NCBI RefSeq assembly: GCF_002777855.1
Contig: NZ_MEIK01000034.1
Location: 124,001-188,000, forward strand
DNA from: Snodgrassella alvi
Lineage (GTDB): Bacteria > Pseudomonadota > Gammaproteobacteria > Burkholderiales > Neisseriaceae
Direction of reading: 5' to 3'
Length of the DNA stretch: 64,000 nucleotides
Below the pieces are notes generated by a model. That model saw nothing but the letters and a program-made list of their open reading frames with translations, had not been told where the DNA came from and searched no databases. Below, piece after piece: positions 6,915-11,223 of the stretch (its first letter is position 1; each line of letters begins with the position of its first letter). A program made the position numbers and the translations under genes.

Positions 6915-8450
6915 TTATTTTTTGTCTGGGGTTTCACTCAGAAACAGCTGATAAGCAGCATTGTGCGTCTGTTCCTGATATAGATAACCAAGGTGTTCCA
7001 GAAATGTATGGAATTTTTCTGTATCAGAAGGAGGAATATCCAGACCCACTAATACGCGGCCGAAATCGGCACCATGGTTGCGATAATGAAACAGGGAAAT
7101 ATTCCAGTCAGATTGCATGTGCAACAGAAAGCGTTTTAATGCGCCTGGCCGCTCTGGGAACTCAAAGCTTATCAGGCGCTCATTGGCTACTTTTCCAGTG
7201 CGACCGCCCACCATATAGCGGATATGCAGTTTGGCCATTTCGTTATGGGTTAAGTCGATGGTCGGCAGGCCGTTGCTGTTTAGTTCCTGTGCAATCTGCT
7301 GTAAATCGGCGATGTCGTTACTCTGGATACCGACAAAAATATGGGCTTTCTGGTTATCCCCATAGCGATAATTGAATTCCGTAATATTGCGGTTGCCTAT
7401 CAGTTCAATAAAGTGACGGAAGCTGCCCGGTTTTTCCGGTATGGTAACAGCAAAAATACCTTCATGGCCTTCGGTCAGTTCACAACGTTCGGATACATAA
7501 CGAAGCTGATGAAAGTTCATGTTGGCACCACTTGTGACGGCTATCAAATTTTGATGCTGGCACTGATTCTTAGCGATATATGCTTTTAGGCCGGCTAGGG
7601 CAAGTGCGCCTGAGGTTTCAGTAATACTGCGAGTATCATCGAAGATATCTTTAATCGCCGCACAAATGCTGTCGGAATCGACAATGATGATGTCGTCTAA
7701 AAGGTCGCGGCACAAAGCAAATGTTTCTTCGCCCACCAGTTTGACGGCAGTGCCGTCGGCAAATAGGCCAACTTCAGATAATTCGATGCGTTTACCTGCT
7801 GCAATGGATTGTTTCATGGCGCAAGCATCTTCGGTTTCAACGCCGATTACTTTGATTTCCGGACGTACGTTTTTGATATAGGCGGCAACGCCAGCAGCGA
7901 GGCCACCACCACCGATGGCTACAAAAACTGCATCTATTGGTTTGGCATGCTGACGCAGTATTTCCATGCCGATGGTGCCTTGTCCTGCTATCACATCAGG
8001 ATCATCAAATGGTGGAATGTAGGTTAAGCCGCTTTCGGTAACCAGTTGCATGGCGTGGTTATAAGCATCGTTGTATGACTCACCGGCCAATACGACTTTT
8101 CCTCCCCTTTTTCTGACAGCATCAATTTTGATTTGTGGTGTGGTTTGAGGCATGACAATTGTTGCCTCACATCCTAGTTTTTGCGCAGACAATGCTACAC
8201 CCTGTGCATGGTTGCCAGCTGAAGCAGTAATAACCCCTTTTTTTAGAGTAGTTTTGTCCAGCTTGGCCATTTTGTTATAGGCGCCACGGATTTTAAAGGA
8301 AAATACCGGCTGTAAATCTTCACGTTTTAGCCAGATGTGGTTGTTGAGTCGGTCGGATAGGTTGGTGGCATAATCCAAAGGCGTTTCAATGGCTACATCG
8401 TAGACAGCGGCGGTGAGTATGCGGATGAGGTAGTTTGCGTGTTTGTTCAT
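6915..8450 (-). CDS. ilvA: Threonine ammonia-lyase, biosynthetic
   Basis: IlvA converts threonine to 2-oxobutanoate and ammonia, the first step of isoleucine synthesis. At 511 residues it is the long allosteric form: a PLP fold-type II catalytic domain up to about residue 325, then two ACT-like domains. The PLP lysine is K53 in SFKIRGAYN, the phosphate loop is GGGGLAAG, and the C-terminal half has the EKPGSFRHF and ERPGALKRF repeats of the two regulatory domains. Feedback control by isoleucine is expected from the family. It stands alone, transcribed away from the PBP5-like gene. Confidence 0.96.
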   Translation of the reverse strand: MNKHANYLIRILTAAVYDVAIETPLDYATNLSDRLNNHIWLKREDLQPVFSFKIRGAYNKMAKLDKTTLKKGVITASAGNHAQGVALSAQKLGCEATIVMPQTTPQIKIDAVRKRGGKVVLAGESYNDAYNHAMQLVTESGLTYIPPFDDPDVIAGQGTIGMEILRQHAKPIDAVFVAIGGGGLAAGVAAYIKNVRPEIKVIGVETEDACAMKQSIAAGKRIELSEVGLFADGTAVKLVGEETFALCRDLLDDIIIVDSDSICAAIKDIFDDTRSITETSGALALAGLKAYIAKNQCQHQNLIAVTSGANMNFHQLRYVSERCELTEGHEGIFAVTIPEKPGSFRHFIELIGNRNITEFNYRYGDNQKAHIFVGIQSNDIADLQQIAQELNSNGLPTIDLTHNEMAKLHIRYMVGGRTGKVANERLISFEFPERPGALKRFLLHMQSDWNISLFHYRNHGADFGRVLVGLDIPPSDTEKFHTFLEHLGYLYQEQTHNAAYQLFLSETPDKK

Positions 8451-8655
8451 GATTGCTTATAAAGAAGAGTCTGATTTTATTGTGCAGATTGTCTGCTTAA
8501 CGGAATTAATCAAAAATTAACGATAACGCGGCTGTTTTTTTTATGCAAGTAAATTTGCCAATATTGCTTATCTAGTGCGGTCAAATGTTTATAATATCCC
8601 GTTAAGGATTGGGTGAATGCCGGCAAAGCCGATTTTGAATGTGCTAAAAGAAAAT

Positions 8656-9804
8656 ATGAGAAATTTAATTTGTGGAATATGGGCAACGATATTGCTGGCA
8701 GTTCTGCCAATGGCGCAGGCAGTGGAATTGCCCGTGATTAATGCTGCAGCGTATGCGGTGGCGGATGAGCAAAGCGGAATGATTCTGGCAAGCCGTGATA
8801 AGGATGCTCGGATTGAGCCAGCAGCGTTGACTAAGCTGATGACGGCTTACTTAGTTTTTGATGCTTTGCAAAGTGGCAAACTGAAAGCTCGCCAGCAATT
8901 GCAGGTTTCTTCAACTGGTTGGCAGACAGACGGCAGCAGAATGTTTTTACAGCAGGGTGTGCCGGTACAGGCTGAAACAGTGGTGCAGGGTATGCTGGTG
9001 ATTTCTGCCAATGATGCGGCAATAACGCTGGCTGAAGCAGTGGGCGGCAGTGAAAAAGCCTTTGTACAGCGTATGAATACACAAGCGCAGAAAATGGGGC
9101 TGCATCATACCCATTTTATGAATTGCACCGGTTTGCCAGTACAAGGACAATACAGTAGTGTGGGAGATTTGCTGATATTAGCACAGAGACTGGTTAGTGA
9201 TTTTCCACAGTATCAAAAATGGTTTGCTAAGAAATCATTTAGTTATAACGGAGTAACGCAGTTAAACCAAAATCTGCTGTTGTTTCGCGATGATCAGGTG
9301 GATGGTCTGGCTGTAGGGTATAGTATTAATGGCGGATATAATCTGGCTGTAAGCAGCAAGCGCAATGACCGCAGTAATATTGCAGTACTCGTAGGTGCAG
9401 ACAGCAGTGAGGCCAGAGCTGCTGAAGGCAGTAAGCTATTAAGCTGGGCTCTGACTTCTTTCAATACGGTGCGCTTATATCCGGCGGGACATAAACTTGC
9501 AGATATCACAGTTTACAAGGGTGCACATCGAAAGGTGCCAGTCGGATTTTTGCGTGATACCTATGTTACTGTGCCTGCTAATGGAGCTAAAGAGCTTGTA
9601 ATTGAACTAGATGCTGTACAGCCTGTAGTGGCACCTGTGTATAAAGGACAGAATATGGGGACGTTAAAGCTTCTGGCTGGAAACCAGACAATTGCTGAAC
9701 AGCAGGTGGTAGCACTGCATAATGTGGATGAGGCGGGTTGGTTCAGTCGCTGGCTGGATAGTGTTGCTTTGTGGTGGCACAATCTTTTTCGCAAAGCAAA
9801 ATAG
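8656..9804 (+). CDS. PBP5/DacA-family protein lacking catalytic residues
   Basis: The fold is that of the D-alanyl-D-alanine carboxypeptidases: signal peptide (residues 1-22), peptidase S11 domain (about 25-270), PBP5 C-terminal domain (about 280-355) and an amphipathic tail that would anchor it to the inner membrane. Two of three catalytic motifs are lost. The SxxK box reads A57-L-T-K60, with Ala (GCG, 8824-8826) for the nucleophilic serine. The KTG box reads A219-V-G221 (9310-9318). The SxN box (S117-A-N119) is intact. The frame is otherwise undamaged, so this looks like a retained pseudoenzyme. The frame also has an upstream ATG at 8617, but 8656 gives a standard signal peptide. Confidence 0.85.
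   Translation: MRNLICGIWATILLAVLPMAQAVELPVINAAAYAVADEQSGMILASRDKDARIEPAALTKLMTAYLVFDALQSGKLKARQQLQVSSTGWQTDGSRMFLQQGVPVQAETVVQGMLVISANDAAITLAEAVGGSEKAFVQRMNTQAQKMGLHHTHFMNCTGLPVQGQYSSVGDLLILAQRLVSDFPQYQKWFAKKSFSYNGVTQLNQNLLLFRDDQVDGLAVGYSINGGYNLAVSSKRNDRSNIAVLVGADSSEARAAEGSKLLSWALTSFNTVRLYPAGHKLADITVYKGAHRKVPVGFLRDTYVTVPANGAKELVIELDAVQPVVAPVYKGQNMGTLKLLAGNQTIAEQQVVALHNVDEAGWFSRWLDSVALWWHNLFRKAK

Positions 9805-9924: not shown

Positions 9925-11223
<1,299 letters not shown>

Follow-up and report, generated by a model that had tools for sequence, protein, structure and literature searches.

The DNA analyzed here (the window) is a 64,000-nucleotide stretch of a Snodgrassella alvi genome. It contains dacC, which encodes a PBP5-family protein with altered catalytic motifs and lies between an ilvA-type and a purA-type gene, both on the opposite strand. 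The features of the locus are as follows.

6915..8450, minus strand: ilvA-type gene, 511 aa, upstream neighbor (named by eye)
8590..8595, plus strand: TATAAT, a −10-like element 5′ of dacC (shared by all 8 core Snodgrassella genomes inspected; L001, L003–L009)
8656..9804, plus strand: dacC, PBP5-family (class C type-5) protein, catalytic motifs lost; 382 aa plus stop (translation, Pfam, structure-sequence match)
8656..8721, plus strand: N-terminal signal sequence (by eye; helix at residues 2–16 in the predicted model)
8716..9402, plus strand: Peptidase_S11 domain, residues 21–249 (Pfam, 2e-58)
8824..8835, plus strand: SxxK site, now A57-L-T-K60 (translation and comparison with relatives)
9004..9012, plus strand: retained SxN motif, S117-A118-N119 (translation; SGN in 34 of 35 active relatives)
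9310..9318, plus strand: KTG site, now A219-V220-G221 (translation and comparison with relatives)
9460..9732, plus strand: PBP5_C domain, residues 269–359 (Pfam, 9.7e-18)
9739..9792, plus strand: C-terminal helix, residues 362–379, presumed amphipathic membrane anchor (low-confidence model)
9925..11217, minus strand: purA-type gene, 430 aa, downstream neighbor (named by eye)

The dacC frame runs without interruption and reads as an initial annotation of this DNA had described it, with Ala57-LTK at the SxxK site, A219-V-G at the KTG site and SxN kept. Pfam found the peptidase S11 and PBP5 C-terminal domains that the annotation had named. In a sequence search, the best match among solved structures was PBP5 of Pseudomonas aeruginosa (4k91, 4.6e-73, residues 26–362); in this alignment the serine of SLTK corresponds to Ala57 and KTG to A219-V-G221, and Lys60 is retained. 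An AlphaFold model built from a thin input alignment was of low confidence (pLDDT 63, pTM 0.52); PBP5 structures were the top matches to this weak model, with a TM score of only about 0.5. The C-terminal helix is presumably a membrane anchor, as it is in PBP5. From the sequence, the loss of the catalytic residues, nucleophile and KTG alike, is certain, and because they are lost, established PBP chemistry predicts loss of DD-carboxypeptidase activity. A beta-lactam-binding scaffold, one of the roles that the initial annotation had proposed, is not supported: the acylating serine and the KTG lysine and threonine are all gone, and gonococcal DacC went undetected by Bocillin labeling (PMC10269775).

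The start at 8656 is common to core Snodgrassella relatives. In the window genome, translation from an in-frame ATG at 8617 would yield 395 aa (the extension being 8617–8655), and by eye a ribosome-site-like AAGGA precedes this ATG; in a genome of the same species (G072), the open frame spans 384 aa and does not reach this ATG.

Across the family, an ilvA-type match was present within the fetched stretch at 69 of 74 dacC loci. Among the remaining five, L010 had the purA-type match only, L013 is close to the end of its contig, and neither match occurred at L036, L051 or L055. The purA-type match occurred at 10 of the 13 loci of genus code g1 and in no other fetched stretch. We take g1 to include Snodgrassella because locus L077, from S. 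alvi WF3-3, agrees with the g1 genome G071 in contig coordinates and dacC product. Because active and dead forms mostly share the same ilvA-type locus, they are mostly orthologues, not paralogues; these comparisons identify the window gene as the orthologue of neisserial DacC in Snodgrassella.

Both motif changes are common to core Snodgrassella genomes

Genus code g1 comprises 14 genomes, of which 11, including the window's own, form the core set (G000, G068–G072, G074, G075, G077, G079 and G080). dacC was present in 13 of the 14, each with Ala57, and the KTG site reads A-V-G in 12 and A-T-G in one (G078). All 11 core genomes share Ala57, Lys60, SxN and A-V-G, and in all 11 the frame is intact. 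Loci named as S. alvi WF3-3, Nev4-2 and App4-8, S. communis, S. gandavensis and one MAG agree; these appear to be assemblies already included among the surveyed genomes and thus supply names, not independent evidence. The initial annotation had asked whether both changes extend to other Snodgrassella genomes, and they do. It had also raised sequencing error at the motif sites, which, together with chance, is ruled out by the presence of both changes in 11 of 11 core genomes with differing Ala codons.

Outside the core set, dacC of G076 is split into two overlapping frames (L032, 2437–3542) with motifs GALVK and AVG, apparently through decay or assembly error. G078 carries a shortened gene of 367 residues without the C-terminal helix (L014, 1483–2547) and with ALTQ, AAN and ATG at the three sites, a case of further decay in which Lys60 and the serine of SxN are also lost. 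dacC was not found in G073, a genome 60% complete. The role of DacC seems to be dispensable in part of genus code g1.

Selection on dacC after catalytic loss

For eight core Snodgrassella sequences, omega of dacC was 0.097 (lnL −4227.6 versus −4589.6 at omega = 1, a rejection by 362 log units), and omega = 1 was rejected in the six groups tested. The check for purifying selection that the initial annotation had proposed thus came out positive. Values in other dead groups were 0.057 (the related G077/G079/G080, n = 3), 0.034 (G014 group, three sequences), 0.034 (G022 group, five) and 0.204 (pathogen-type, six); four active groups gave 0.061, 0.053, 0.136 and 0.077. For rpoB, omega was 0.013 in the core, 0.012, 0.020 and 0.025 in the G014, G022 and pathogen-type groups, and 0.021, 0.035, 0.099 and 0.029 in the active groups, with too few sequences for G077/G079/G080. 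The resulting dacC-to-rpoB ratio was about 7.5 in core Snodgrassella and about 8 in the pathogen-type group, against about 2.8 and 1.7 in two other dead groups and about 1.4 to 3 in active ones. Because omega relative to rpoB exceeds that of the active groups, constraint on core DacC is partly relaxed; selection on core Snodgrassella and pathogen-type DacC is real, but the constraint is weaker. A relaxed substitution pattern, which the initial annotation had named as the mark of a decaying gene, is therefore present in part, but it coexists with intact frames throughout the core and a firm rejection of omega = 1.

The strongest single observation of selection comes from the replaced residues. 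Codon 57 is GCT in seven, GCG in two (the window has GCG) and GCA in two of the 11 core sequences; codon 219 shows the same distribution (GCT 7, GCG 2, GCA 2), and Val220 is encoded by three different Val codons. At codons 57 and 219 the DNA has turned over and the non-catalytic residue has been held. Because different Ala codons are used across core genomes, Ala57 and Ala219 are themselves kept. Positions close to the motifs in sequence are still well kept: of those invariant in active sequences, 27 of 35 were unchanged in 11 dead sequences, compared with 35 of 57 in the rest of domain 1 and 14 of 20 in domain 2. The conservation seen around the cleft may have purely structural reasons. These comparisons show, at the level of substitution patterns, that purifying selection acts on DacC after catalytic loss, replaced residues included, and retention of the gene under selection is well supported. 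The proposal of a pseudoenzyme kept for a non-catalytic role accords with all of this, both motifs being lost from an intact frame in which omega is low and the two alanines persist through synonymous change.

Recurrent loss of DacC motifs in the family

We surveyed 83 genomes of the family and found a DacC orthologue in 74; in the other nine a match was either missing or weak (identity no higher than 31%, interpreted as PBP7-like), and completeness is 85% or less for four of these nine. Residue 57 is Ala in 31 and Ser in 43 (G051 counted as Ser), and the replacement of Ser57 is Ala in 31 of 31. Given that the 42 serine codons read at this position are all TCN, which lies one base from Ala, some uniformity is expected. 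Among the 43 Ser57 proteins, KTG is present in 36 and altered in seven. Lys60 has been replaced by Gln in the G058, G022 and G017 lineages as well as in G078, never with Ser57 present. Outside the family, 108 of 117 genomes searched gave a match, and the best 29 of these all have SxxK, SGN and KTG; because these best-scoring relatives retain all motifs, motif loss is the derived state.

Parsimony on an rpoB tree (73 genomes, 67 with DacC state counted) gave six changes at Ser57, three at Lys60 and 11 at KTG, and a DacC tree (75 rows, motif columns masked, those of SxN as 116–118, the motif being 117–119) gave seven, four and eight. These counts are unrooted minima whose exact number is uncertain, and they leave out the split gene of G051, whose Ser is present, at Ser57 and Lys60. 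Both trees are quick searches with many weak branches, and several dead rows are long-branched. On both, g1 groups with G081 in a single dead clade (SH-aLRT 99 on the DacC tree, 88 on the rpoB tree) whose neighbor is the active G055, which shows a single loss common to g1 and G081. Across the family, DacC inactivation seems to have arisen several separate times, with six or seven Ser57 changes by parsimony.

Grouping the dead sequences on the DacC tree ourselves, we distinguished seven lineages, two of which merge on the rpoB tree. In this list, compiled without a control, S57A occurs in seven lineages, G118A (SGN to SAN) in five, T223S in five (not the g1 core), K60Q in three and H222Y in three; A118 is present in one of 35 active sequences. 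L026 and L027 have KTG, L029 and L034 have KAG in a very similar DacC, and the serine is still present, possibly a recent step of loss. The sister genomes G018 and G009 (L023 and L043) have QTG and QIG, one with Ala57 and the other with Ser57, which suggests that in this lineage the KTG lysine was lost before Ser57.

Other carboxypeptidases, MreB and type IV pili

The initial annotation had suggested that the protein might regulate an active paralogue. This finds little to build on, as the window genome yielded no other PBP5-type protein and no Peptidase_S13 (DacB) or VanY match; what remains of the suggestion is a PBP7-like S11 protein, the only other DacC match in the genome, with SISK, SEN and KTG and only 25% identity to DacC. 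Its nearest NCBIfam model is PBP7 (254.9 bits, under the model cut-off of 294). A PF00144 protein of 439 aa is also encoded in the window genome (L161, 1438–2757, minus strand); by eye it has a signal-like N-terminus, and at 38 bits it falls far below the AmpH cut-off of 266 in NCBIfam, by which it is not AmpH.

Peptidase_S13 was likewise not found in the single-contig relatives G072 and G068, and it was present in four of the 14 g1 genomes. Since no Peptidase_S13 was found, a DacB partnership of the gonococcal type is impossible in that form in the window genome, and the apparent absence of DacB from core Snodgrassella and G058 speaks against such a partnership as the general function of DacC. 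The idea that DacC death is permitted only where DacB is present is not supported by the family: at a cut of better than 1e-30, set because four genomes matched only through their own dacC at about 1e-6, Peptidase_S13 occurs in 18 of the 29 genomes with Ala57 and in 23 of the 38 with Ser57 (the 67 with rpoB and a DacC state), a comparison that holds only six independent pairs, too few for significance either way, and in which absence is unsure for incomplete genomes.

MreB is missing in seven of 29 Ala57 and three of 38 Ser57 genomes; its presence in the other 22 Ala57 genomes and in all 14 g1 genomes does not support a general tie between DacC death and MreB loss. MreB scores in the family fall into two classes, with E values of about 1e-145 and about 1e-133, which may reflect altered elongation machinery in part of the family. 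PilQ was found in eight of nine genomes without DacC, so DacC does not appear to be required for possessing type IV pili.

Discussion

We consider it probable, on balance, that an exported PBP5-fold protein lost its DD-carboxypeptidase chemistry in the common ancestor of the genus Snodgrassella and a single sister genus and that it persists as a non-enzymatic cell-wall adaptor, acting in the envelope by binding or placing, with the type IV pilus as one plausible site. The product would be exported to the periplasm, held on the inner membrane by its C-terminal helix, and act by binding, probably positioning or restraining other enzymes of the wall around large machines of the envelope, for instance the type IV pilus. 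This role is suggested by analogy with two systems. In the gonococcus, mutating dacB and dacC together is reported to cut piliation drastically and to lower transformation by 94%, dacC mutation alone is described as having little effect on sacculus composition, and DacC has been proposed to act in complex with PBP3 (DacB) or as a scaffold for pili (PMC6365954). In Escherichia coli, the inactive PBP5-S44G disturbs shape more than the absence of PBP5, a dominant effect (PMC5596342). Because DacB was not found here, the partner of Snodgrassella DacC must be another protein; the PBP7-like protein, an M23 protein or a lytic transglycosylase are guesses at candidates. A link to the type IV pilus specifically, argued from the gonococcal analogy, is possible but doubtful. 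dacC is also listed among the N. musculi genes needed for mouse colonization, its mutants being underrepresented in mice (PMC9140248).

Other readings of the same data seem less probable to us. The dead cleft could bind pentapeptide ends uncut, shielding them or marking new wall, and the g1 core still has Lys60 and SxN along with most of the residues near the motifs, which is compatible with this. So is the stepwise climb of pentapeptides toward N. meningitidis, with tetra/pentapeptide ratios of 5.1, 2.9 and 1.3 (PMC4498754), in a species whose DacC is reported to keep only SxN (PMC6365954). The A-V-G of Snodgrassella is, however, without the KTG lysine and threonine, and stem-peptide binding is on that account unlikely. 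By established PBP structure, these two residues help bind the substrate carboxylate. Regulation of the PBP7-like protein is a narrower idea, attractive in that this protein has all three motifs and is the sole other S11 relative found in the genome, but the two proteins have diverged widely, and comparable weak second matches in genomes with active DacC (e.g., G054 and G019) indicate no special pairing; we regard it as improbable.

That the gene is simply decaying, with no function left, would account for omega being raised relative to rpoB, for the split or shortened copies in G076 and G078, and for the long branches of several dead lineages. We nonetheless find it very improbable, in view of the intact frame of every core genome, the strength with which omega = 1 is rejected, the TATAAT element found in each core genome looked at and the purely synonymous change of the replaced residues. 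Least credible of all is an enzyme still working through another nucleophile: Lys60 is retained in the g1 core, but Thr59 occurs also in the SLTK of active relatives, so that no new nucleophile is seen, KTG is lost as well, and Gln has taken the place of Lys60 itself in G078 and other dead lineages.

If the adaptor reading is taken to the level of the family, the Neisseriaceae would have made their only PBP5 a dedicated non-catalytic wall protein at least six times by parsimony, Ser giving way to Ala in every instance and SGN often to SAN. Core Snodgrassella, having also lost DacB, would be left without a recognized PBP5-, PBP4- or VanY-type carboxypeptidase, and the prediction follows that its wall should be pentapeptide-rich. 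The rise in pentapeptides toward the meningococcus, attributed in print to a change in cell shape, may then stem in part from DacC death, but in N. elongata and N. bacilliformis the deletion of yacF was by itself enough to raise pentapeptides (PMC4498754). We offer this wider synthesis as a speculation that is rather doubtful as a whole. The words dacA, dacC and carboxypeptidase are absent from the main text of PMC4498754, as are dac, carboxypeptidase, PBP5 and dacB from the main text of PMC9395523, where muropeptides were measured in 14 rods and three multicellular species.

Catalytically dead DacC and its variation among Neisseria species are already known: many species have mutated motifs, rods such as N. 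weaveri and N. elongata have an apparently functional DacC, and the dead form has been explained by partnership with DacB or by the change from rod to coccus (PMC6365954). Our literature search on Snodgrassella carboxypeptidases and penicillin-binding proteins found nothing on the dacC gene, a search on pseudoenzymes in Neisseria found no paper, and no paper among the matches listed concerned repeated DacC loss across the family. What is added here is the separate Snodgrassella loss, the number and convergence of losses in the family, the occurrence of dead DacC together with MreB, and the absence of DacB. Dead DacC recurs, also where MreB is present and in bee symbionts that lack a detectable DacB; this separates the published explanations, and Snodgrassella is a tractable, non-pathogenic system for finding what a non-cutting PBP5 does.

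Comparison with known systems

The closest known counterpart is the dead form of neisserial DacC, to which the window gene is assigned by sequence, ilvA-type locus and trees, and with which it shares an intact frame without catalytic residues. DacC of N. gonorrhoeae (NGO_0443) and N. meningitidis belongs to the same gene family and is also reported to be motif-deficient, the gonococcal protein lacking all three motifs and the meningococcal one retaining SxN only (PMC6365954). By pattern, not by name, five surveyed genomes fit the meningococcal description (G013, G017, G028, G031 and G048; ALTQ, SAN, KAG) and one fits the gonococcal (G023; ALTQ, CAN, KAG). The Snodgrassella loss is a separate event from theirs on both trees; it has left Lys60 in place and A-V-G at the KTG site, in contrast to the ALTQ and K-A-G of the meningococcal pattern, and the genetic partner of gonococcal DacC, DacB, was not found in the window genome.

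E. coli PBP5, PBP6 and PBP6b (DacA, DacC and DacD) and P. aeruginosa PBP5 are active DD-carboxypeptidases with the same two domains, and 4k91 aligns over nearly the full length, but it has the SxxK and KTG that Snodgrassella DacC has lost. Set against an active class C type-5 PBP (S11 DD-carboxypeptidase), the window protein thus has the domains and SxN and lacks the SxxK serine and KTG. The engineered E. coli PBP5-S44G is likewise a PBP5 without its nucleophile, present but inactive; that protein, however, is a laboratory mutant whose presence causes a shape defect (PMC5596342), whereas the dead form in Snodgrassella is natural and conserved.
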